A stretch of DNA of 14,640 nt from Leucogyrophana mollusca. Its lineage: Eukaryota > Basidiomycota > Agaricomycetes > Boletales. The translations under genes were made by a program, and so were the position numbers. Shown one piece after another: positions 1,274 to 14,640 of this stretch. The notes beneath the pieces are model-generated. The model did no database searches, was not told the origin of the DNA, and was given only the letters and a program-made list of their open reading frames with translations. The DNA is taken from the NCBI GenBank assembly GCA_021014945.1, contig MU266782.1, positions 1 through 14,640 of the forward strand, written 5' to 3'. Position 1 is the first letter of the stretch. Each line of letters opens with the position of its first letter.

Positions 1274-1384
1274 AACCAGTTCGCTAGTGGATGGTGGCGG
1301 ACTGGACGTGGGATTACGCACCATCAGAGTAAAACTTGTCAAACATAGCGGGGTTATCTTCGCTCAACCATTCTATGCACCTCG

Positions 1385-1582
1385 TCAGGCTGGATCCGAA
1401 CTCGCAGTCCTCGACTGGGAAGGTGCATACTGAGCGAGAACCAGGATCGATATCGACATGAGCACAGGATGGACATTAGCATGGGACAGGTAGCGGGGGA
1501 GGTCACCTTTGCAGTAAAATACGTGTACTGGCTGCGTTGGCTGAGGATCTTGCGATTGAGCTTGTTGGTCAGGTGAAGACAT
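1385..1582 (-). other. Conserved antisense short ORF of the 5' module, copy in A
   Basis: A 65-codon ORF reads MSSPDQQAQSQDPQPTQP at its start and ends SSDPA. The same ORF, at the same length, is open in segment D (11910-12107), but the copy in segment C has two stops. It would be transcribed divergently from secreted-protein gene A. No family is recognised. Conservation of the DNA alone could explain it, because frames on the other strand are conserved too. It may be the first exon of a real divergent gene, a relic, or non-coding. Confidence 0.25.
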
Positions 1583-1990
1583 GATGATGATAGTAAAGAG
1601 ACGCGGTTACGTAAGACGATGTGTTTTCCCCGGACTCTCGCCTCCCGACTCGGCTGCACTTCTGCGTCCTCTCCGTGAATGCGCCACACTTACTTACTCA
1701 TCAAACTCATCAAGAGTGCTTGGACTTGGGAAAAAATAGAAGGTAAATCCTTAAAATCCTCAAAACATAGATTCGCGGCCGGCTCAGTCCTCCAAGCCGT
1801 CACCCTAGTGGGCCTGCAAGTACCGATGCGCGGTTTGCAGCTTTGGATACGACGCTCACCGGGCCAACTTTCGATACCCTCCATGACTTTTGGACATGTC
1901 TCGTTGGCCAACGGCTTGGTGGCTCGAAGCCTCCGAGCTGACCTAAGCTGATCCGCGTCGGCGCCGACCTCGACGCGATTGCTGCGTCTG

Positions 1991-2055
1991 GCCAGATGAA
2001 TGACAATCGATAGACTGTCTATCGTGAATTTGCCTCAAGCCCCCGATTATAAAAG
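1991..2055 (+). promoter_or_regulatory. Promoter of gene A: conserved box and TATA
   Basis: A box, GCCAGATGAATGACAATCGA (1991-2010), recurs upstream of every copy whose promoter is in the window. It is followed by TATAAAAG at 2048-2055, about 145 bases before the ATG. The bases between TATA and ATG (GTGCAAAAAAGCC.., GTTGTCAGCAGAACG..) are conserved too, which fits a shared core promoter and 5' leader. No duplicate module is seen here. Confidence 0.6.
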
Positions 2056-2198
2056 GGGCCATACTCTAGTGCAAAAAAGCCTCACTCGTCTGGGTTGTCA
2101 GCAGAACGTTCGACGCCATTCGTCTACTCGTGCGTGGATCTCTTTTTCCCCTCGTTCACTCACTATCATACTGACGCACTCAGTCTGGAACGCACGGA

Positions 2199-2643
2199 AT
2201 GCTTTTTCGCCCTGCCGCTATCCTCCTCGTCGCTGGCATCTGCGCCATGCGAGCCACTGCCGCTGATTATTACAGCGTAGATTTATTCAGTGGGCTGGTC
2301 TTCAACGGAACCCAAGAGCACCACCTCGTTTATATAGGCGAAAAATATTATTGGGATAAACTCGCTTGTGGATCGTGCAAGGACATCACGAAGATACCGG
2401 CCGGGCACCTGCACTCGTGGATCATGCGGGCGAGCCGCAAAGTCAATCTCAGGTTCTATGGTAAAAAAGATTGCAAGGATGAACTCAGTAAGTGAAGCTT
2501 TCGTGCGTTCGTTCGTTCGTTCTTTACTCACACGGGACGTTTGCTTTTCGTTAGAGCCGACGTTTACCGCCAAGGCGGAATTCGTCATGCCAGTGACTGG
2601 CGATATACTTTATGCCCGCTCTTTTAAGGGTTGCGCGGTGTAA
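2199..2643 (+). CDS. Small secreted cysteine-containing protein, copy A
   Basis: Two exons (2199-2487, 2555-2643) with a 67-base intron (2488-2554, GTAAGT..TTAG, CTCAC branch site) at phase 1, giving 125 residues. Residues 1-21 form a signal peptide (positive start MLFRP, hydrophobic core, ATA-type cleavage site), so the product should enter the secretory pathway. Mature cysteines are C57 and C60 (CGSC), C92 and C123. NGT at 36-38 is a glycosylation sequon. Two halves look alike: VDLFSG..FNG ending LHSW, then VNLRFYG..C ending ARSFKGC. This suggests a double Greek-key beta/gamma-crystallin-like domain (inference). The start is fixed by four homologues beginning at the same Met. Intron retention would stop at once (TGA inside the donor region), so splicing is needed for the conserved C-terminus. 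Function unknown; a secreted effector-like or antimicrobial role is only a guess. Confidence 0.88.
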
Positions 2644-3016
2644 TAGGACGTTGGGTTGATGAGCATACATACATGAACACCGTTAGCAAGGAGTACCGAC
2701 GAGTATGTGTCTACGACGGAGAAGGGAAGGAGTGGTGTTAAAATAGTCACTCCGTCGTGAAAAGATGTGTCCCTCTGCCATGCAGCAGGACCCTATCCGA
2801 GTCGTGCGCTGTCCACAGCCTGTCGTACCGAATCCCTTCGAACAAACCCAGGCGTTCTCGAGGGGTCTGCTCATATCGCCTCCGAGTCGTGTTTCCTTTG
2901 ATGGAGGCTATCTCCCGTGCTCAGGGGGCTCAATATTATGATATGGCAAGTCTGATGGATTCACACAATTTACGGCCAGCCGACAAGGGGAAGGGCTGAG
3001 CCGTTTATTTGCTGTG

Positions 3017-3240
3017 AGATGCACATTTTATTCTTAGCGCATTGATATGGACAACTGAACCAACTGATCCAGGGGTGTTTGCTGGGCGGATAAACAGAAT
3101 GGGGCCAACCGTGACCGAGGCACCTTTCCCGGCCATGACCTAGGCCGCGTCGTAAACGGAACACCACCTAGTACTGGATTAATCCTCAACTCGCACATCG
3201 TAGCCAGGCCATCCTTTGTGGGACCAAGAGCAGGCGGATC
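3017..3240. repeat. Dispersed repeat, copy 1
   Basis: The stretch AGATGCAC..., GGGCGGATAAACA, CCGTGACCGAGG and CATGACCTAGGC recurs in the same order and orientation at 11391-11697. It ends with the short block CTTTGTGGGACCAAGAGCAG, which is also the outer end of the 3' flank of segment B. It lies exactly between the convergent genes A and B, and its second copy lies just before segment D, so it marks rearrangement junctions. No coding potential or terminal inverted repeats are recognised. Confidence 0.6.
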
Positions 3241-3616
3241 TTCACGGATTCTGAGGCGAGATTATTGTGTATTTGCCGGGGAGGCGTGTTAGATGTTGGA
3301 CTGGACGGTGAGAACTTGTTGTGGAGACGCGTCGCCACCCGCCTTGACAGAGGGGCGCAGAGGAAGCGGTTGAGAGCAAGGAGTAGGGCGTGGTCGAGCA
3401 TACAGAGAGAAACGCACGGTTGGCGTTGAGGAAAGACGTTGTGTTGGAGAGATCGGCTGTAAGTTATGTCAGACTTGCCAAATCACAATATTGAACCGCC
3501 TGAGCACTGAAGAAAGGAAACATGACCGGAGGCGAGATGACCAGGCCCCTTGACAACGCCTGAGTTTGTTTGGAGGGATTCAGTAGTACGCCGGCCTGTG
3601 TCAGCGCACGACTTGG

Positions 3617-3639
3617 ATGTCGCGACTTGGTCGCGACAT
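3617..3639. repeat. Perfect 10-bp-stem hairpin unique to the B 3' flank
   Basis: ATGTCGCGAC (3617-3626), loop TTG, GTCGCGACAT (3630-3639). Homologous positions in the flanks of A, C and D lack it and read straight from the CATGCAG.. block into CCGAGTC. It is therefore an insertion of about 15-20 bases specific to this copy. Confidence 0.75.
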
Positions 3640-3775
3640 GTTCCTGCTGCATAGCAGAGGGGCACATCTTTTCATCATATGAACTATTTTCACAGTGTTC
3701 CTCTAGTCGGCACTCCTCGCTAGCGGTGTTAATGCGTGTATGCTCATCCACCCAGGTCCCAACCTCCTATCCTAA

Positions 3776-4231
3776 CTAGATAGCTGGCAACCGGCAAGCC
3801 TTAATAGAACGGGCATGAAGTACATCCCCATGTTGGTCAGTCATCTCTATGCCATCTTTAAACACATTATACGCCGGCTCTAACAAAAAGCAAACACCCT
3901 GTGTCAGTAAAGAATGATCAAGCGAACGAAAGCGCCGCTTACTGTATTCATTCTTGCAGCCCTTTGCACCATAGAATCTGAGATTGACGTCGCACGTTGG
4001 AAACAGGTACCACGAATGCAGCTTCCCGGCCGGTATCTTCGTGATGTCCTTGCACGATCCACAAGCGAGGTCATCCCACCAATATTTGTGGCCTATCTCA
4101 ACTTGGTAATCCTCTTCGGTTCCGTTCAGGTGCGTCCCGCTGTACAATCCTAGAGAGTAACTATCGGTGGCAGTGGCTCGCATGGCGCAGGTGCCAGCGA
4201 CGAGGAGGATAGCGGCAGGGCGAAAAAGCAT
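3776..4231 (-). CDS. Small secreted cysteine-containing protein, copy B
   Basis: Minus-strand exons 4231-3943 and 3879-3776 with a 63-base intron (3942-3880, GTAAGC..TTAG, CTGAC branch), giving 130 residues. Signal peptide residues 1-21 are nearly identical to copy A. The mature protein keeps the CGSC motif (57, 60), IPAGKLHSW, LRFYG.KGC and ARS.KAC, and has an extra cysteine at position 80 where A and C have Arg. The C-terminus is longer (CRLPAI) because the stop is displaced. The intron length is a multiple of three with no in-frame stop, so a retained-intron product would stay in frame with 21 added residues. Exon 1 is 289 bases, identical in length to A, C and E. It faces gene A tail to tail. 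Same unknown secreted role; intact and probably functional. Confidence 0.87.
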   Translation of the reverse strand: MLFRPAAILLVAGTCAMRATATDSYSLGLYSGTHLNGTEEDYQVEIGHKYWWDDLACGSCKDITKIPAGKLHSWYLFPTCDVNLRFYGAKGCKNEYSKRRFRSLDHSLLTQGVCFLLEPAYNVFKDGIEMTDQHGDVLHARSIKACRLPAI

Positions 4232-4367
4232 TCTATATGTTCCAGAATGAGCGAGTCAGTATGATAGTGAACGAGGAGACAAGATATCCACGCACGAGTA
4301 GACGAAAGGTGTCGAGCGTTGCTGACAACTCAGACGAGTGGGGCTTGTTTTGCACTAGAGTATGGCC

Positions 4368-4548
4368 TTTTTATAACTGGAGGTTTGGGACCTTTTGGAA
4401 CACATTCATGACAGGCCGCCTGTACCGCAGTGTATCGATTAACATTCATCTGGCGAGATGCAATCGTGTTAAGATGGGTCGAAGTTGGCGTGACAACCCA
4501 GACGAGTGGGTCCCTTTGCACCGGAGTGTGACCCTTTTCATGACCGGA
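4368..4548 (-). promoter_or_regulatory. Promoter of gene B with duplicated module
   Basis: On the minus strand TATAAAAA lies at 4375-4368, about 140 bases before the ATG, and the conserved box (variant with TTAATCG) at 4454-4434. A second, degenerate copy of the TATA-to-leader stretch lies about 168 bases further upstream: ACTCGTCTGGGTTGTCA ends near 4493 and its TATA equivalent near 4537 is lost. The same arrangement of two tandem modules is seen in D and in part in C. Confidence 0.55.
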
Positions 4549-4588
4549 GGATTATGACAAGGAATACCTCGATTGTCGTTCATAGACA

Positions 4589-5501
4589 CGCCTCCCCGGC
4601 CAACGTGACATAGTGCCTCGGTCATGGCACTGGGACTCGATTAAAGGGATCCACAGAGCACCGCAAGGTGGATATAGGCCGGCAACAACTACTGGGGCGA
4701 CTGCCACCGACCTCACTCTCGTCCGAGTTTCTCAAGCCCTGTAGGCCCACAGGCTATACATACCTCATCCAGCCTCGACCCACCTCAACACGTTGAACGA
4801 TTGCTATGAATGTCAACGCCTGTCAACGCCCGCCAGACCCTCCGATCGGTGACGTATCGCCGACCTCGGGCACACAAAGACAGGCCCGGGGAGTTCGCTG
4901 GCTACATGAGTATGTATCGAGGAATAACGTACAGCATTAATGGAACATACACGCGCAGGGCCATCAATTGAAGCTTTGTTGGTGCCCGAGGACATGGCCG
5001 AGTGGCTCGACCCACCCCGAGTCTTTTAGCCAAGGCACGACAACAACAGCTGGCTGGAGGCGACGTACATTCCTGCTATATTGATGATGGGTCGGGCACA
5101 TCTGACTGAGGTACTTACGTTGTACCAGAACTCGAAGGATACATATAATGATATACCTGTCGAGAATCGCCAACGAACCCACTCAAGCCCCACTTTGCAC
5201 TGCTCTAGGCGGACATCGTGGAATCTACGTCGGCATGAGGTGGGCCAAGCACGCAGTCCGCATGGTTGATTGGAGACCGAGTGCATCGAAGACGACTCTC
5301 GAAAAGAGTATACATACCCAACAATCGATCACAGATATATTTCCAACCTTGAGCTTTGAAAACCTGCAAAAACGAGTCCCATGCATCTGCCCTTCCATCC
5401 CCTGTGAGACCGAAAACGAACGACTGGGACGACCAGATGGCGTTGTCTAAACGAATGGCGGGTATTTCTCTTGACATGGTGTCACCAGGGAAGAGACGTA
5501 C
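4589..5501. other. Spacer without a recognised gene
   Basis: About 0.9 kb between segments B and C. A short stretch at about 4770-4815 resembles the promoter module (CCTCGACCCACCTCAACACG..). On the minus strand there are strong donor-like sites, GTATGT at 5317 and GTAAGT at 5118, and open coding-like stretches. One of them, around 5446-5318, could be spliced in frame after the DENR-like exon ending at 5502. I recognise no protein family in it. It may hold the remains of a spliced minus-strand gene. Confidence 0.4.
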
Positions 5502-5725
5502 CGAATGCCTCGAGCCCGAGGATAGCCGTGACGTGTTTGCGCTTGTTTCGCTCGATACGCTCGATGAGGACTTGTGAAGCCTGCCGCAGCCGTGACGAAC
5601 GATCAGCACACAGATAAAAGAAGCGGAACAGCGAAAGATACGCACCATCTTTTTCTTCTGTGTAGTCTCTGCCTTTGCTTCCGCCTTTGCCCCTTCCTTG
5701 GCGGTGTCTCTTCCAAGCTCTCCCT
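5502..5725 (-). pseudogene. Fragment of DENR/TMA22-like SUI1-domain translation factor
   Basis: Minus strand: a Lys/Ala/Glu-rich linker (AKAEAKAETTQKKKM, ending 5646), then an intron 5645-5581 (GTGCGT..GGCAG, CTGAT branch, 65 bases, phase 0), then an exon 5580-5502 encoding VLIERIERNKRKHVTAILG plus LEAF, with a GTACGT donor at 5501. Known: RIERNKRK..VT...GLE.F is the start of the SUI1 domain of density-regulated protein (DENR, yeast TMA22), which acts with MCT1/TMA20 in 40S recycling and reinitiation. Members are about 200 residues. Only the linker and roughly the first 26 SUI1 residues are present. The N-terminal part is missing because sequence changes to duplicated segment C at about 5738, and the expected DLKKA.. 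continuation is not found downstream. Best read as a fragment captured or cut by rearrangement. Confidence 0.65.
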
Positions 5726-5895
5726 GCGCCCCGGGGGAGAGGGTGCCGATCTTTGTTTGGAGAGCTTCTGCCCGTGTGTGGAACGATGTCAGCAGACGCA
5801 GAGGATGGCGGACTGGACGTAGGGTTACGCACCATCTGAGTAAAACTTGTCGAACATAGTGGGGTTATCTTCGCTCAGCCATTCTTTGCACCTCG

Positions 5896-6093
5896 TCAGG
5901 CTGGATCCGAACTCGCAGTACTCGACCGGGAAGGTGCATACTGGGCGGGGGCCAGGATCGATATCGACATGAGCACAGGATGGACATTAGCATCGGATGG
6001 CTAGCGGGGGAGGTCACCTTTGCAATAGAACACGTGTACTGGTTGCGTTGGCTGAGGATCTTGCTATTGAGCTTGTTGGTCGGATGAAGACAT
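5896..6093 (-). pseudogene. Antisense short ORF of the 5' module, broken copy in C
   Basis: It aligns base for base with the 65-codon antisense ORFs at 1385-1582 and 11910-12107 and begins MSSSDQQAQ. It carries a stop at codon 10 (TAG for a Ser codon) and another (TAG) where D has Tyr in the PSYLSD stretch. If the ORF in A and D is a real exon, this copy is dead. If not, the stops argue that the module is non-coding. Confidence 0.3.
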
Positions 6094-6488
6094 GATGATA
6101 GTGAGGAGAAGCGGTTACGTAAGGCGATGTGTCCCCCCCGACTCCCGCCTTCGGCCGCACTTCTCGTCCTCTCCATAAATGCACCACACTTACTTACAAA
6201 TCTATTGCACTTGGGAGAAGATAGAAGGTAAATCCTTAAGTTATCGATTCGCAGCCAGCTCAGTCCTCCAAGCCGTTTACTCTGGTGGGCCTGCAAACAC
6301 CGACGTGTGGTTTGCTGCTTCGGAAACTACGCTCACAGGGCCACCTCTTGGTACCCTCCATGAATTTTGCACATGTCTCGTTTGTCAACGGCTTGGTGGG
6401 TCTGGCCTTCCGAGCTGACCGAAACTGATCCGCGGCAACGCCAACGCCGGACCCACCTCGACACGATTGTTGCATATGGCAGCATATG

Positions 6489-6665
6489 GCCAGATGAATG
6501 ACAATCGATATATCCCTTGTCATGATGTGCCTTAAACCTCCAGTCTTGTCATGCAAACCTCGACCCATTTGAACACGATCGTTGGATCTCGCCAGATGAA
6601 TGACAATCGATGCACTGCAGTACACTGCCTGCCATGAATGTGCCCCAAACCTCCAGTTATAAAAC
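6489..6665 (+). promoter_or_regulatory. Promoter of gene C with two conserved boxes
   Basis: The box GCCAGATGAATGACAATCGA occurs twice, at 6489-6508 and 6591-6610. The second is followed by the palindrome-bearing stretch GCACTGCAGTACACTGCC and TATAAAAC at 6658-6665, about 138-145 bases before the ATG. The upstream module has kept TTAAACCTCCAGT (6532-6544) but lost its TATA. Confidence 0.6.
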
Positions 6666-6802
6666 GGCCCTACCCAAGTGCAAAAAAGCCCCACTCGTCT
6701 GAGTTGTCAGTGGAACGTTTGACGCCTTTCGTCTACTCGTGTGTACATTTCTTGTCCCCTCGTTCACGATCATACCGACTCGCTCATTCTGGAACGTATA
6801 GA

Positions 6803-7255
6803 ATGCTTTTTCGCCCTGCCGCAATCTTCCTCGCCGCTGGTATCTGCGCCATGCGAGCCACTGCCTCTGGTTTTTACGAAGTAGCGTTGTACACTGGGAC
6901 TCTCTTGGACGGATTCGTTGATTACTATCACATTGATATCGGCCACAAATTTTGGGGGGATGTACTCGCTTGTGGATCGTGCCAGAAAATCAACGCGATA
7001 CCGGCCGGGCACCTGCACTCGTGGGCCATGCAAGCGAGCCGCAAAGTCAATCTCAGGTTCTACGCTGCAGAAGGCTGCAAGAATGAATACAGTAAGCGGC
7101 GCTTTCGTTCGTTCGTTCGTTCTTTACTCACACAGGATGTTTACTTTTCGTTAGAGAAAACGTATACCGCCGGGGGGGTTACCGGCGTAGAGGAGCTTAA
7201 CGTGCAAGGCGATTTATCTCATGCCCGCTCCTTTAAGGGTTGCGCGGTGAAATAG
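6803..7255 (+). CDS. Small secreted cysteine-containing protein, copy C
   Basis: Exons 6803-7091 and 7155-7255 with a 63-base phase-1 intron (7092-7154, GTAAGC..TTAG), giving 129 residues. The reading frame is open upstream to 6638, but that stretch is promoter DNA containing the TATA box. The Met at 6803 matches the start of all homologues and opens the signal peptide MLFRPAAIFLAAG.. (about 21 residues). Mature features: CGSC at 57-60, AIPAGHLHSW, LRFYAAEGC and ARSFKGC, with Arg at position 80 as in copy A. The middle loop is diverged (DGFVDYY in place of NGT..H) and has lost the glycosylation sequon. The intron holds no stop and is a multiple of three, so both spliced and unspliced messages are translatable. 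It is the only copy without an inverted partner; the UbiA gene follows about 1.1 kb downstream. Confidence 0.88.
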   Translation: MLFRPAAIFLAAGICAMRATASGFYEVALYTGTLLDGFVDYYHIDIGHKFWGDVLACGSCQKINAIPAGHLHSWAMQASRKVNLRFYAAEGCKNEYSKRRFRSFVRSLLTQDVYFSLEKTYTAGGVTGVEELNVQGDLSHARSFKGCAVK

Positions 7256-7822
7256 GAGGTTGGGTGGATGAGCATACGTACATGAACACCGCCGGCGAGG
7301 AGTACCGACGAGTTTGTGTCTACGACGGAGAAAAGAAGGAGTGATGTTAAAATCGTCGCTACACCACAAAAAGACATGTCCCCTTGCCATGCAGGAGGGA
7401 CATATCCGAGTCGAGCGCTGTCCACAGCCTGTCTTGCCATATCCCTCCGAACAAACCCAGGCGTTCTCGAGAGGTCTGCTCATATCGCCTCCAAGTCACG
7501 TTTCCTTTGCTGAAGGCTATCTCCCGTGCTCATGTGGTGCAATATTATGATTGGCAAGTCTGATGGATTCGCACAATTTACAGCTGACCTCTCGGGCACA
7601 ACTTGTCTTTCCTCAGCGCCGGCCGTGTGTTTCTCGACCACGCCCTACTTCCTTTCAACCGCTTCCTCTATGCCCCCTCTCAGCGCAGCCTGCGATGCGC
7701 CTCCCCAACGAGATCTCAACCTCCAGTCCAGCGCCCAACACGCCTGGCACATCCACAACACGAATCTCGCCTCGGAATCCGCGACAGACTGCTCTTGGTC
7801 CCACAAAGGATGTCCTGGGGTT

Positions 7823-8351
7823 GCTTTCGTTCGTTCATCTTTCTTTGGTGGAAATCCAGCCCTCTGTTTACAGTCAGTTTAACTGGGACATTTTACCAAG
7901 GTCCCGTAAAACGGCGAGGTCACGTGCCGGGTGCCTTATCGGGCAGGCGTTTCCTTCCTCTTTGTGATCAGACTTACTCTCCCGAATATGGGAATCCGGC
8001 AACCTCCGAGACGCTCATTTCGCCTTCGCGCTGACTCATCGACGCGCTCGTTTGCTTCCTCCCCATCCACGGCGAACAGGCGCTGAATGTTATCACGCCA
8101 TAAAACCGTCTGGTTAAGTGATTTGTAGTTTTTCATGCGCTTGCGATTGACAACCTAGCAATCGGCGACCCACCCAGTCGCCGATCAGATTTCAGCCTCG
8201 GTTGTTAAAGCTCAACCGGCCACTCCATCAAAGTGGAATACTGTAGTGCTATTCTCGAAAGATGGTGTTGATTTCTCTATCTAAAATCTTATCAAGGACA
8301 CCCATCTTCTATAAAGTCCCAGCGATGTGACATTGAATTGGATATCTACCA
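7823..8351. other. Spacer between segment C and the UbiA gene
   Basis: About 530 bases with no recognised gene. A short minus-strand ORF (8136-7936) has no family resemblance and no splice support. TATAAAG at 8310-8316 may be the UbiA promoter, but it lies only 36 bases from the ATG, which would leave a very short leader. The sequence is not repeated elsewhere in the window. Confidence 0.5.
8310..8316 (+). promoter_or_regulatory. Possible TATA box of the UbiA gene
   Basis: TATAAAG 36 bases upstream of the chosen ATG at 8352. An ATG at 8324 is followed at once by TGA. The spacing would place transcription start almost at the start codon, so the assignment is weak. Confidence 0.25.
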
Positions 8352-9575
8352 ATGTCCTCTCAGCCCTTGCTGAATAACGCATCAGAATCTTCTTCGTCGC
8401 CCCAACATGTGTCGAGAGTTACCTTGCGAGGGTGCTACGAACTTATGCGCTGGCATAAACCTTTCATCGGCAACACCTTAGCATTCTGGCCGTGTGGTAC
8501 GCGGTCTGTCAGATGATAAAGCATCTCGCTCACCGGCATACGGCCACCTAGCTTGGGGTATTACTATGGCCGCTCTGGCTAATCACACACAGCCTCGATC
8601 TCTCGTTTTGCAAACAATCAAGTTCGGCATCAGCAGTCTGCTCTTGCATAGCGGTGGTTGCGTCTGGAATGATATTTGCGACGTCAGATTTGACAAGCAA
8701 GTCGGTAGGTTTGGTTCAGCGGCTCCCAGAGGTTGAATCTACTCACGGACTAACATCAGAGCGCACAAAAAGGAGACCTCTTCCCTCTGGTCGCGTCACG
8801 TTGGGTCAAGCCTGGGTTCTTTTGGTGCTCGTTGCGACTGCTTATGCGATCACACTCCCGGTCTCCAATAACACTACGTGAGTTTCCGTGGTATTCCACA
8901 GCCTCGGCGCTAAAGTCACAACACACCAGTGCGATACTGGGCTGCATCTGGGTTTTCCCTTTAACAGGTCTTTATCCACTGATGAAAAGGTGGACTTACT
9001 GGCCTCAAGCTTGGCTTGGCCTGGCCATGAACTTCGGCTTTCCGGTTGCCTGGGCATCTCAGACTGGTGAAGTGCGATCCATCGCCGTCTGGACCATGTA
9101 TCTGGGTACTGTTTGGTAACGTAGCCCATTTAACTTGCCGCATCTGATGAACTAACTGCCAATGACCAGTTGGACAATTGTGTATGACACCATGTACGCA
9201 GTCCAGGACCGCAAAGACGACGTAAAAGCGGGAATTAAATCCACCGCTGTCCTATTCAGCGATTGGGTCCGCCCTATACTTTCCATATTCGCGGCGTCAT
9301 TTGTGGCTCTTTTGGTTTTCTCGGGGATATGGAACGGACAGGGATCCGCTTACTTCGTCGTTTCATGCGGTGGTACGGGTATACATCTAGCATGGCAGCT
9401 ACTGGCTTGGAAAGTAGGCGAAGGCGCCGACGACGACGCGAAGTTCAATGTATGTTTGTTTTCCAGAGCGCTCGTGTCCTCCGCTAATTTATACCCGGCC
9501 ACCTAGTCTAACGGATTCATTGGCCTCCTCATTTTCGTTGGGGTGGCTTTGGATTACTCATCTCAGCGAACGTGA
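8352..9575 (+). CDS. UbiA-family polyprenyltransferase (COQ2-like)
   Basis: Six exons: 8352-8496, 8552-8704, 8760-8877, 8930-9115, 9170-9449, 9507-9575. All introns are 52-57 bases and GT..AG, with CTAAC branch sites in several. They join to 951 bases, 316 residues. UbiA enzymes are membrane proteins that move a polyprenyl chain from its diphosphate to an acceptor ring such as 4-hydroxybenzoate. Seen: RWHKP at 33-37, first Asp-rich motif NDICDVRFD (88-96), ERTKRRPLPSGR (100-111), YPLMKRWTYWPQ (154-165), second Asp-rich motif YDTMYAVQDRKDD (206-218), and several hydrophobic segments. The pattern is closest to fungal COQ2. Oddly, the N-terminus before the domain is only about 28 residues, Ser-rich and without an Arg-rich helix, so no mitochondrial presequence is visible. 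It may act outside mitochondria, for example in meroterpenoid synthesis (inference). No partner biosynthetic genes are in view. Confidence 0.93.
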
Positions 9576-10508
9576 CCAAAAAAAGCACTGGAATGGACTA
9601 GTCTATGCTACTGAACATGTCTCTTGGGTTATCCGTCAAGGATGGGTAACTCATTCAAGACTCGTCGATCCGATAACAGCGCTGTACCTCGTAATCATGT
9701 ATGATTATCACCCCCCAGACCACAAAAATCGAGTCACTCTTGTGGCAACTCCCTTCATCACCGCAGCGCAGGACAACCATGACCATTTGCAGTGACCATC
9801 AGTTAATGTATCAGGAGCACTGCCAGTAAAGTCGCCTCAGACAGTCTTGACGTGCACAGGTGCGGCGACGAACTGACCAGCCGGTACTCTACGGGTAGAT
9901 TCACCATTACTAAATATCAAGATCAGTGAGGACCGCCCTTCCTTCAGTGGAGGAATGAGGCATCTTTGGACACGCCATGGCGCCAGGCCTTGCTTGTTGC
10001 ATAGTGGACTGTCTTCCGCGAATGATTCGATAACAAGTTCGAGTCCGAGGGTTGTGGGCCCATGGCTAGGATCTTTTATACAGCCCCACTACTATTAATA
10101 CGGGGGCGAAGCTGCAACAGTCGCTGCTATCCTACCCAGCTGCAGCAGCTAGCGTAACTGTCGGACGCTGTCCCAGCTCTTGCAGCTGCCGCAATGACAC
10201 TCCGCCGTCTATCCCAAAGCTGCTTTACCCCAACTTCCTGGATGTCCTGCTCGAGTCCTCCCGCCGAGCTTGAAAAGCTACCCACGCCTCCCCAGAACGC
10301 GATGATGAATACTCTCAGTGAGACTGTGCACCACACCCTTACCAAGAATAGCGCACCAGCCTTCAATCCCACACCCCTCGCCCACCCTCGACGCGTTTCA
10401 GAGCCTGAGTCCTTTCATGAAGGGAGGTAAGGTTAATCAGCACCTCACGAAGGGGTGGTACGGGAGACCATAGACGACCTTCCTTGTTGGTCTGCTTGTT
10501 AATTCTAG
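9576..10508. other. Spacer downstream of the UbiA gene
   Basis: About 0.9 kb. The frame running on from the last UbiA intron stays open to 9795, but it is not the frame of the terminal UbiA exon and resembles no family. At 10194-10430 a plus-strand ORF includes PPAELEKLPTPPQNAMMNTL and ends just after a GTAAGG donor-like site (10427). An overlapping minus-strand ORF (10372-10127) is equally open, so the coding strand cannot be decided. No repeats shared with the duplicated segments were seen. Confidence 0.4.
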
Positions 10509-11039
10509 CTTGTACTCCGCATAGCGTTTCCATGGCTATTCAAGAATCTTCCACGTATCCCCATCGCTAACCTCCTCTACCTGGTGGCTCCAGTCTATTC
10601 TAGATCGGTGAAAAACAAAGCCGGGGGTGCGTCTTATGGGTATTGGAAAGACCTTTTAAACATCCTCGCACTTGCCGCCGCTCACGAGCTCCACATTGGA
10701 GAGGAGTTCTCTTCTCGTTTATCTCTCCTGCCCAACTACACGCGGCAAGTATCACGTCCGAAGTTCGTTCGAACGAGGAGCAAGAAGTGTGGTCGCGGGA
10801 AAAGGCGCTTAAAAAGCGCACGCCCGTTTGGTGAGGAAGCTAGTGCAGCCAAAGTTCCGTGTGCTCTATATGCCGTTGTCCAGCTCTTTGTCGATAGGTT
10901 GATGGAGGAGAGGCGCATTCTTGAAAAGATCTCGTCCCTGGCAGTTAACTTGAAGGATCGGGAATCACTAACCTTCTCCCTCTCCTTGTTACCGATTGAT
11001 ATATCCTTCTGCACCATTCACCGGCACTCTCCACTCTAG
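10509..11039 (+). other. Unrecognised coding-like stretch
   Basis: After an acceptor-like TTAATTCTAG (ending 10508) the frame reads IAFPWLFKNLPRIPIANLLY and stays open to the stop at 11037-11039. The later part includes VDRLMEERRILEKISSLAVN. A second frame across 10740-10834 is also protein-like (ITSEVRSNEEQEVWSREKAL, then a stop). The best-looking frame therefore changes near 10740, which suggests an unresolved intron or a decayed gene. No start codon or family is recognised. A neighbouring 188-codon minus-strand ORF (11555-10989) overlaps the next repeat and looks like a shadow. Confidence 0.3.
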
Positions 11040-11390
11040 AGTCCCCTTCTCCCTGACTCCATTCCCGCTTGAGGCCCACGTTCTCCGCACATTCTTCCAG
11101 CGACACATTCTGACACCCCTGCGACGCGCGCAATGCCTCCCAGAACCGCTCATGTCCGCCAACCGCTGGTATGGAATCATCTGCTCGCGTGCCTCATCCA
11201 TCCGCATGAACGTGGCTGGTGGAGTCACGGTGGTGGTCGGGCCGGCTACGTCTCTCCAGTATATTTCGGATCCAAGGGTTCCCGATGCTTCCACTAGGAG
11301 TATGAACGGTATGGCGCGGCTGTCACCGTCATGGGTTCGAGTGTCAAGTTGGTGCATGTTTAACCCGGTTGTAGCCCTGTATTTTCCACG

Positions 11391-11697
11391 AGATGCACGT
11401 TTAATGCGTAGCGCGTCGAAATGAGAAACTAAATTAACTGAGCCAGGAAAACATGCCGGGCGGATAAACATACCATGGAGCATCAGGGGGCCTACCGTGA
11501 CCGAGGTATGTTTCCATGACCTAGGCTGCATCGTAAATGAGTTGTCGATTTGCATACGTAGCTAGTACTTGCGGGACGGGAGCGATCGATCGATCCCGGT
11601 TCTATGTCTAGAGCTTGAGCACTCGAAAGGTGCGAAAGCGAATCCCATACGTCCCCGATGTCATCCCTTGTGGGACCAAGAGCAGACGGAGAGGTGC
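11391..11697. repeat. Dispersed repeat, copy 2
   Basis: Diverged, colinear match to 3017-3240: AGATGCAC.., GGGCGGATAAACA, CCGTGACCGAGG, CATGACCTAGGC, then after about 110 bases CTTGTGGGACCAAGAGCAG. The gap includes GATCGATCGATC (11584-11595). It sits immediately before segment D, so D may have inserted or duplicated next to it. Confidence 0.6.
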
Positions 11698-11909
11698 AAC
11701 GAACCAGATTTCCTGTGCGTTTTGTGTCTGTGTCACCCGTATAACATCGGCCAGGGACGAGGGTGCCGATCTTTGTTTGGAGGGCTTCTGCGCGTGTGTG
11801 GAACGATGTCAGCGGGAGGTGGCGGACTGGACGTCGGATTACGCACCATCAGAGTAAAACTTGTCAAACATAGCGGCGTTATCTTCGCTCAACCATTCTT
11901 TGCACCTCG

Positions 11910-12107
11910 TCAGGCTGGATCCAAACTCGCAGTACTCGACTGGGAAGGTGCATACTGAGCGAGAGCCAGGATCGATATCGACATGAGCACAGGATGGACA
12001 TTAGCATCGGACAGGTAGCTGGGGAGGTCACCTTTGCAGTAGAATACGTGTACTGGCTGCGTTGGCTGAGGATCTTGCGATTGAACTTGTTGGTCGGATG
12101 AAGACAT
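11910..12107 (-). other. Conserved antisense short ORF of the 5' module, copy in D
   Basis: 65 codons, starting MSSSDQQVQSQDPQ and ending SLDPA, with the same length and start as the copy at 1385-1582 and several amino-acid differences from it. It is divergent to secreted-protein gene D. The short polar N-terminus followed by a hydrophobic patch could be a first exon, but no donor site is conserved between copies. Function unknown. Confidence 0.25.
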
Positions 12108-12433
12108 GATTGCTCGTGAGGAGAAGCGGTTACGTAAGACTATGTGTCGGTCCCGCCTTCGGGCGCACTTCTCGTCCTCTCCGTGAACGCACCACGCTTA
12201 CTAATTATCTAGAGTCCTTGCACTTGGGAGAAGATAGAAGGTAAATCCTTAAAATATCGATTCGCAGACGGCTCAGTCCTGCAAGCCGTTTACTCTAGTG
12301 GACCTGCAAATATCAACGTGCGGTTTGCAGCTTTGGAAACTACGCCCACGGGGCCACCTTGGTCCTTTTGATACCCTCCATGACTTTTGGACGTGTCTCG
12401 TTGGCCAACGGCTTGATGAGTTGAGCACTCGAA

Positions 12434-12780
12434 GCTGACCGGAGCCGATCCGCGGCAACGCAAACCCCGACCCACCTCGACACGATTGCTGCATCTGGCC
12501 AGATGAACGACAAACGACACATCGCTTGTCGTATGTGCGTTAAACCTCCAGTTAAAAAGGGCCACACTCCAGTGTAAAAGGTGCCACTCGTCTGGGTTGC
12601 CATACCTAAGCTGATCCGCGGCAACGCCGACTCCGACCTACCTCAACATGATTGTTGCATCTCGCCAGTTGAATGACAATCGGTGCACTGCAGTACACTG
12701 CCTGCCATGAATGTGCCTCAAACCCCCAGTCATAAAACGGCCCTACCCAAGTGCAAAAAAGCCCCACTCGGCTGAGTTGT
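12434..12780 (+). promoter_or_regulatory. Tandem promoter modules of gene D
   Basis: Two direct copies about 166-180 bases apart. Each starts near GATCCGCGGCAACGC (12447, 12613), followed by the conserved box in variant form (12498, 12664), CCTCAAACC/TTAAACC, a TATA region, and ACTCG.CTG.GTTG. The first TATA is degraded (AGTTAAAAAG). The second, CATAAAAC at 12731-12738, has lost its first T. Together with the frameshift in gene D, both degraded TATA sites suggest reduced expression. Confidence 0.55.
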
Positions 12781-12875
12781 CAGCGGAACGTTCGACGTCT
12801 TTCGTTTGCTCGTGTGTGGATTTCTTGTCCCTTCGTTCACTATCATACTGACTCACTCAGTCTGGAACGCACAGA

Positions 12876-13330
12876 ATGCTCTCCCGCCTTGCCGCTATCC
12901 TCCTCGTCGCTGGAATCTGCGCCATGCAAGCCACTGCCACTGATGCTTACGACGTAGATTTTTGTTCAGCGGGCCGAACTTGGACGGGACCAAAGAGCAC
13001 CACCACGTTGAGATAGGCCACAAATATTGGTTGAAGGATAAACTCGCTTGTGGATCGTGCAAGAAAATCTCGAAGGTACCGGCCGGGAAGCTGCACTCGT
13101 GGGCCATGGCAGCAACCTGCTCCATCGAGCTCAGGTTCTATGGTACAGAGGGCTGCAAGAATGAATACAGTAAGCGGTGCTCTCGTTCGTTCGTTCGTTC
13201 TTTACTCACACAGGATGCTTGCTTTTCGTTAGAAACGACGTATTTCCTCAAGGAGGGATTCATAGCCGACACTGACATACATGGCGATCTAGTTCATGCC
13301 CGCTCTTTTAAGGCTTGCCGGGTGGATTAG
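12876..13330 (+). pseudogene. Small secreted protein, copy D, frameshifted
   Basis: The start at 12876 opens a signal peptide like that of the other copies (MLSRLAAILLVAG..), but exon 1 has a run of five T at 12959-12963 where homologues imply two fewer (or one more) bases. Reading from the ATG terminates about 20 codons later; the rest of exon 1 (from 12962) continues in another frame to 13169. Downstream features are intact: CGSC, KVPAGKLHSW, a cysteine at the position-80 equivalent, LRFYG..GC, the 63-base intron 13170-13232 (GTAAGC..TTAG), and ARSFKAC before the stop at 13328-13330. One codon is inserted before KLACGSC. A T-run indel is a common sequencing error, so this could be intact in reality. 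As given, the secreted product cannot be made. Confidence 0.8.
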
Positions 13331-14039
13331 GAGGTTTGGTGGACGAGCATACACACATGTACACCGCTAGCGAGGAGTACCGACGAGTATGTGTCTACGA
13401 CGGAGAAGGGAAGGAGTGGTGTTAAAACAGCCGCTACATCATAAAAGATGTGTCCCCTCCCATGCAGGAGGAATATATCCGAGTCATGCGCTGTTTACAG
13501 CCTGTCTTGCCATATCCCTCCGAACAAACCCAGGCGTTCTCGAGGGGTCCGCTCATATCGCCCTCGAGTCATGTTTCCTTTGCTGGAGGCTGTCTCCCGT
13601 GCTCAGGTGGTTCAATATTATGATATGACAAGTCTGATGGATTCGCACAATTTACGGCTGACCTCTCCAGCACAACTTGTCTTTCCTCAACACCAACCGT
13701 TTGTTTCTCTCTGTATGCTCGACCACGCCCTACTCCTTCCTCTCAACTACTTCCTCTGCGTCCCTCTCTCAATGCAGCCGGCGACGTGCCTCCCCAATGA
13801 GCTCTCAACGCTCAGTCCAGCGTCCGACTACACCCTCCGGCGAACACACAATACGAATCCCGCCGCAGGGTCCGCGACAGACGTACACCATGCGGTGTGC
13901 CGCACCGATCCGTTTGCTCTTGGTCTCACAAAGGATGACCTAGCTACGGTATGCAAGCCGGCGACTGATCCAGCACCAGGTGGCGTTTCGTGTACGATGT
14001 GCCTCGGGGTTTGTTTGGCATGCTCACACTGCCCAACAA

Positions 14040-14640
14040 ATCGAGGGGGACACATCTTATTATGATGTTGTAGCTGTTTTCGCACTGTTCCATCTTCGCC
14101 TTCTCCGTCGATGAGGACACGGTACTCTTTGCCCCCAGCATCCACGTATGTACGTTCATCCACCAAACTTCCTATTACACCCGGCAAGCCTCAAAAGAGC
14201 GGGCATTGACGATATTGCCATGCACATTAGGCTCTGCGTCGCTGTCTCCGGTATACATCGATTCTAACGAAAAGCAAACATCCTATCAGTAAAGAACGAA
14301 CAAACAAGCGAAAGCGCCAATTACTGAGTATACTCTTGCAGCCTTTTTTACCGTAGAACCTGAGATTGACATTGCAGGTCGCTCCCAGGGACCACGAGTG
14401 CAGCTTCCCGGCCGGTATCTTCGTGATGTCCTTGCACGATCCACAAGCGAGTTTATCCCCTGGATATTTAGTGCCTATCTCAACGTAGTGGTGCTCTGCA
14501 GATCCGTTAAACATCGGCCCAGTGAAGAAAGTTATGTCGTAACCATCCCAGGCGACGACTCGCGTGGCGCAGATGCCAGTAGCGATGAGGATAGCGGCAG
14601 GGCGGAAAAGCATTCTGTGTGTTCCAGACTGAGCGAGTCA
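14040..14640 (-). repeat. Duplicated segment E, inverted, cut by the window end
   Basis: The minus strand aligns with the other segments from the leader (TCAGTCTGGAAC.CACAGA before the ATG) through gene E to the start of the 3' flank. The match fades near 14040, after GATGTGTCCCC. The outer part of the 3' flank is missing, so E's flank is shorter than those of B, C and D. The promoter lies outside the window. Confidence 0.8.
14175..14613 (-). CDS. Small secreted cysteine-containing protein, copy E
   Basis: Minus-strand exons 14613-14325 and 14263-14175 with a 61-base phase-1 intron (14324-14264, GTAATT..TTAG, ACTGAT branch), giving 125 residues. Reading through the intron goes out of frame, so only splicing gives the conserved end ARSFEACRV. 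The signal peptide is diverged (MLFRPAAILIATGICATRVVA). Mature features: NGS sequon, CGSC (57, 60), IPAGKLHSW, extra cysteine at position 80 as in B and D, LRFYGKKGC, and the C-terminal cysteine. The donor GTAATT is weaker than GTAAGN in the other copies, and the intron has lost most CGTT units. Its promoter is beyond the window edge. It faces gene D tail to tail, mirroring the A/B pair. Confidence 0.86.

Follow-up and report, generated by a model that had tools for sequence, protein, structure and literature searches.

Contig MU266782.1 of Leucogyrophana mollusca (Boletales) carries five related genes, A to E, four of them lying tail to tail in two pairs, which raises the question of what their products do and how this layout arose. 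The window analyzed, 14,640 nucleotides long, was the entire contig (C453) in a genome of 32.3 Mb and 545 contigs. On balance, we favour the reading that A–E encode diversifying secreted proteins with a crystallin fold that are antagonistic to other organisms, the pairs having come from inverted duplication and exchange.

Gene copies and their family

The five genes started at positions 2199 (+), 4231 (-), 6803 (+), 12876 (+), and 14613 (-). Each displayed a computed structure of a first exon close to 290 bases long, an intron of 61–67 bases and a short second exon, predicted from splice signals; for copy A this prediction matched the public model.

2199..2643, + strand: copy A; exon 1 2199-2487, intron 2488-2554, exon 2 2555-2643; 125 amino acids, intact; identical to public protein P0002
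3776..4231, - strand: copy B; exon 1 4231-3943, intron 3942-3880, exon 2 3879-3776; 130 amino acids, intact
6803..7255, + strand: copy C; exon 1 6803-7091, intron 7092-7154, exon 2 7155-7255; 129 amino acids, intact
12876..13330, + strand: copy D; exon 1 12876-13169 (reading frame shifted), intron 13170-13232, exon 2 ending at 13330
14175..14613, - strand: copy E; exon 1 14613-14325, intron 14324-14264, exon 2 14263-14175; 125 amino acids, intact

The public models for copies B (P0001) and C (P0004) differed from ours, the former at its 3' end and the latter in a longer 5' end with the start farther upstream. A, B, C, and E were open; exon 1 of D contained two extra bases that shifted the frame and may be a sequencing error. 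Two further public proteins, P0005 (nearly identical to E) and P0003 (another close family member), are both assigned to a 1848-base contig that was not found in this assembly and that roughly equals the D/E pair in size; its genes possibly represent a third pair or an allele.

At least 30 family loci were counted in this genome, broken and partial ones included (places with E-values up to 0.001). Five of them (on C1, C396, C131, C321, and C63) were recognized from the match only, and weaker places (for instance on C137, C96, and C8) lay outside the count. Intact members had a signal-like hydrophobic start and a single intron, and the ten distant members in the alignment had the intron position and four cysteines in common. 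This alignment of 17 members comprised 16 of the 25 loci compared plus P0005, the near copy standing for E; besides E, five broken or truncated copies (D, C252, C325, and two on C140), the intact C217a, and a pair of C137 loci with a different cysteine pattern and no spliced form found lay outside it. Of 11 copies tested, three (D, C252, and C325) were broken. Direct tandems of members were found on C127, with weaker matches so arranged on C137.

Three protein searches yielded no family member outside L. mollusca (6 hits from 9 candidates, 9 from 1161, and, at E-values up to 10, 2 from 1325, all of them L. mollusca proteins), although distant relatives may be missed since these searches need shared 5-residue words. 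This supports a lineage-restricted family, a possibility raised in the original prediction. No literature on the family was found among open-licence papers judged by title or abstract start, and a text search of PMC13127573 gave no mention of crystallin.

Predicted fold and selection on the mature protein

Unbroken precursors consisted of a hydrophobic start of about 21 residues, probably a secretion signal, and a mature domain of about 104–109 residues. Four cysteines, which would form disulfides, were invariant in all 17 aligned members (4–5 cysteines per mature protein in A, B, C, and E). Computed models of A and of P0007, about 30% identical to each other, both matched beta-gamma-crystallins in Foldseek and VIA, and the mature domain is predicted to be a beta-gamma-crystallin double Greek key. 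The signature of these proteins, [YFW]x6G, was present as a first motif in 17/17 members, its aromatic residue being replaced by cysteine in C217a (outside the alignment) and in its near copy C252. The second motif lacked its glycine in 17/17, where position 94 (seven after Y/F87) was occupied by D, N, S, Q, or H, and the calcium-binding motif of beta-gamma-crystallins, [ND][ND]xx[ST]S, appeared in none of the 17. Pfam searches of the 17 members at E-values up to 1 retrieved no crystallin family. Weak single-member hits to DsbB, Optomotor-blind, DUF6937, and a zinc finger (E 0.014–0.32) were dropped, and the best match in a sequence search of solved structures (E 0.14) was unrelated.

The mature coding DNA differed considerably more between copies (0.269 for A-C, 0.227 for A-D, and 0.274 for C-D) than the noncoding DNA of intron and flanks, where values were about half as high (0.141, 0.119, and 0.119, respectively; Fisher P = 2.6e-7, 3.9e-6, and 6.4e-11, with sites treated as independent). 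A mature part changing faster than the surrounding DNA is as expected in an arms race with other organisms. Codon tests on eight intact copies of the about 15 subfamily loci gave a likelihood ratio test statistic (LRT) of 62.8 for model M2a over M1a, with an omega of 4.2 for 25% of codons, and 24 sites above 0.8, all of them at residue 22 or later. The signal persisted by subset (34.5 for mature exon 1, 11.6 for exon 2, and 61.3 for gapless columns) and by tree (70.4 with a star tree, 69–71 with four random trees), the largest LRT in 24 null simulations without recombination being 7.34. Positive selection on the mature part was favoured by these results. Pooled over 28 pairs, fourfold sites of the variable segments differed as much as the intron (0.191 vs. 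0.193; higher in 12 of the 28). Old cassettes, first suggested by synonymous differences in the variable segments (NG86 pS 0.33–0.48), were unsupported by these pooled sites, with residues 22–54 still high. The 160 bases upstream differed by 0.256 over more distant copies.

Within the mature part, the core block of codons 55–74 was conserved at the DNA level (fourfold differences of 0.081 vs. 0.192 in the intron), and an exact 53-base inverted match between A and E (2353-2405 and 14407-14459) lay in this block.

Several results weigh against secreted crystallin-fold proteins under positive selection. None of the Foldseek matches of the models reached an E-value of 0.001, and among those of model A were low-probability hits to unrelated folds as well as the viral histone-binding protein ORF158L (probability 0.96). 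Neither Pfam nor the sequence search of solved structures linked the family to any known toxin. Many antimicrobial proteins are basic, and the mature isoelectric points of A, B, C, and E (8.9, 6.2, 7.7, and 8.3) were not uniformly so. Omega averaged over sites (model M0) was 0.97, not above 1, and the pooled ratio of nonsynonymous to synonymous differences (pN/pS) of the mature part was 0.85, with values of 0.5–0.9 in pairs involving B. The neutral yardstick was uneven because fourfold differences varied by segment, from 0.285 in residues 22–54 to 0.152 in residues 75–125, as compared with 0.192 in the intron. Recombination, absent from the null simulations, can inflate site tests.

The near-neutral averages, together with the three broken copies, would also fit crystallin-fold proteins with a self-directed role (in cell wall, fruiting body, spore, or stress) whose variation reflects relaxed constraint after duplication. 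Relaxation gives at most equality between mature coding and noncoding change, whereas the coding change was the greater; a codon class with an omega of 4.2 and a cysteine framework kept throughout the alignment also argue against it, and we regard this explanation as unlikely. Quite improbable, in our judgement, is that the copies are polymorphic secreted factors of recognition within the species, acting on self and non-self or on rival strains, even though the restriction of the protein hits to this species, the many copies and the strong diversification agree with it, as would P0005 and P0003 if the 1848-base contig holds alleles.

Layout and copy history

Starts, strands and inverted alignments all agreed with the predicted arrangement of A/B and D/E as tail-to-tail pairs with C on its own. 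Inverted alignments of A with B (974 columns, 73% identity) and of D with E (615 columns, 75% identity) were far beyond chance. The repeats were long units extending past the genes, direct in A, C, and D and inverted in B and E, and an additional element, X, lay in both gene intervals and, in part, downstream of copy C.

1293..2976, + strand: repeat unit of A, spanning its promoter and gene plus the 3' flank
3150..4554, - strand: repeat unit of B; collinear with the D unit over 1.5 kb
5735..7818, + strand: repeat unit of C
11754..13997, + strand: repeat unit of D; contains an inner promoter duplication (12443-12602 / 12609-12782)
14044..14640, - strand: repeat unit of E; truncated where the contig ends
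3138..3335, + strand: element X in the A-B interval; sense orientation relative to A
13762..13999, - strand: element X in the D-E interval; sense orientation relative to E
7672..7818, - strand: part of element X, downstream of C and reversed relative to it

Duplication of promoter, gene, and 3' flank together, another part of the original prediction, held for the A, C, and D units, with D frame-shifted. It was beyond check for the promoter of E, of which the contig contains just 27 bases, the rest lying past its end. At the three further loci where it was found (C217, C343, and C136, the last two with gene fragments) element X lay downstream of the gene in a single sense; within the window it had that sense as seen from A and E, and was reversed as seen from B, C, and D. 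This orientation points to D/E as an inverted version of an A/B-like block, a history not proved by the trees. Copy C did stand alone in the window, but it shared the 3' flank of D, including part of element X, and may therefore be half of a former convergent pair or block. The longest exact repeats measured 55 bases (direct) and 53 bases (inverted); with repeats so short, a false join in the assembly is an unlikely source of the inverted layout.

Trees were built from 11 of the subfamily loci, after truncated ones (both C140 copies and the fragments on C343 and C136) had been set aside. In the coding DNA tree A, B, C, and D grouped together (support 99/97) with E outside, and a clade of all five window copies, absent from the best tree, was not rejected by the approximately unbiased test (p-AU 0.136). 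The suggested grouping of B with E was rejected on both coding DNA (p-AU 0.005) and the 3' flank (p-AU 0.004), although mature exon 1 by itself did not reject it (p-AU 0.084). That of A with C appeared in the coding tree with weak support (82/90) and was missing from the best mature exon 1 tree, without being rejected there (p-AU 0.45). This latter tree placed B with D (58/28, weak), a grouping that the 3' flank did not reject either (p-AU 0.36), while A with E was compatible with mature exon 1 (p-AU 0.18) and rejected by the 3' flank (p-AU 0.017). Between A and B, the DNA of the signal peptide differed by 2% and that of mature exon 1 by 26%.

Shared-site runs exceeded those of shuffles (P < 0.05) in six of the ten pairs, namely B-C (0.001), B-E (0.0025), A-E (0.01), A-B, B-D, and A-C, and not in A-D, C-D, C-E, or D-E; the global value reached only P = 0.035. 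The copy history thus looks, weakly, like a mosaic of segmental duplication with exchange. For the history first proposed, inverted duplication followed either by copying of the pair or by repeated exchange, this agrees with the exchange, whereas the idea that the pair was copied, B giving rise to E, is unsupported because B with E was rejected on coding and 3' flank DNA.

Could recombination, rather than selection, have made the diversity, with donor segments swapped like cassettes between conserved anchor blocks by gene conversion? The shared-site runs, the broken copies and the contrast between few fourfold differences in the core block and many in residues 22–54 are what such swapping would leave, but the pooled fourfold sites of the variable segments no higher than the intron and the modest global run test make it very doubtful. 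Scarcely credible is that the convergent pairs serve as a source of double-stranded RNA silencing the family: read-through from A into B would give 371-base arms, 79% complementary, with an exact 45-base stretch, but where convergent genes have similar 3' flanks these are of the same sense, so that only overlapping or read-through transcripts would pair, and with no other close convergent pair among the 25 loci the layout is no general feature of the family. In the reading favoured here, the head-on pairs probably arose incidentally, when segments were duplicated in inverted orientation and sequence was later exchanged between copies.

Other sequence in the contig was partly dispersed. Positions 1-1290 form a dispersed segment with a 93% identical copy on C217 (40164-41470), which lies some 3.6 kb away from a gene of the family, and further copies on C287 (83%) and C506 (74%); the open reading frame at 504-911 gave no Pfam match. 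Upstream of copy C, a fragment at 5482-5835 (-) resembles the translation factor SUI1 (E 1e-4, below the cut-off), and DNA related to it was found upstream of the family copies on C140 and C325, perhaps as a tag of shared origin. A short dispersed repeat at 7872-7949 was 94–97% identical on C139, C445, C49, and C47. In the C-D interval, stretches of a UbiA prenyltransferase (PF01040) were detected at 8844-9506 (+), and 8202-10458 had an 89% copy on C154 (47875-50169).

Crystallin-fold proteins and a putative antagonistic role

One of the nearest comparisons is with the yeast killer toxin WmKT / HM-1 (PDB 1wkt), a secreted fungal protein of small size that adopts a beta-gamma-crystallin fold, as the present family is predicted to do. 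It was a weak Foldseek match to model A (rank 40, probability 0.80, TMt 0.54, E 0.43) and was not among the 50 VIA matches listed. WmKT has ten cysteines forming five disulfides, a pattern at variance with the four invariant cysteines of the present family, which differs also in its many diversified genomic copies. The lens and microbial beta-gamma-crystallins (gamma-S, Protein S, and the Methanosaeta and Clostridium domains) are set apart by the absence here of a Pfam crystallin match, the calcium motif and the second-motif glycine, and by the presence of a CxxC loop. We have not filed the family under WmKT or the Pfam crystallins because these defining features are missing.

An antagonistic role would follow by analogy with better characterized proteins. 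HM-1 acts on the cell wall of sensitive, competing fungi, according to PMC12715866, and the structure of the plant antimicrobial MiAMP1 resembles that killer toxin (PMC4695807). The beta-gamma-crystallin/WmKT fold is one of eighteen orphan candidate effector groups described in PMC10462633 as occurring in more than 80% of the Pezizomycotina species studied; these are likewise small secreted proteins with the fold in common and without Pfam domains, whereas the present family is basidiomycete and a sequence family of its own. K1-like (KKT) killer toxins of budding yeasts resemble it in species-specific acquisition, duplication with flanks 83–94% identical and raised amino-acid change, and differ in that their pairwise dN/dS ranged from 0.23 to 0.72 with only weak local signs of positive selection (PMC7888664). 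On these grounds the proteins of L. mollusca are probably secreted against rival fungi, bacteria or fungus-feeders and would act like killer toxins of beta-gamma-crystallin fold; the mature framework is kept while other segments, according to the codon tests, change fast under positive selection, and binding to a changing partner would drive the amino-acid change.

Many small secreted fungal proteins lack a known role. The predicted fold, the many loci and the strong selection signal make this family directly testable as a weapon or a recognition system. That the fungus uses the crystallin fold as a species-specific, multi-copy secreted system to recognize or attack neighbours or rival strains, the scaffold staying fixed while other segments change by positive selection, somewhat as in venom toxins, is distinctly unlikely on present evidence. 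L. mollusca is thought to live on dead wood. If the antagonistic role is true, it would extend killer-toxin-like crystallin-fold proteins to the Boletales, and would show one scaffold diversified in a dead-wood fungus with no living host to fight.

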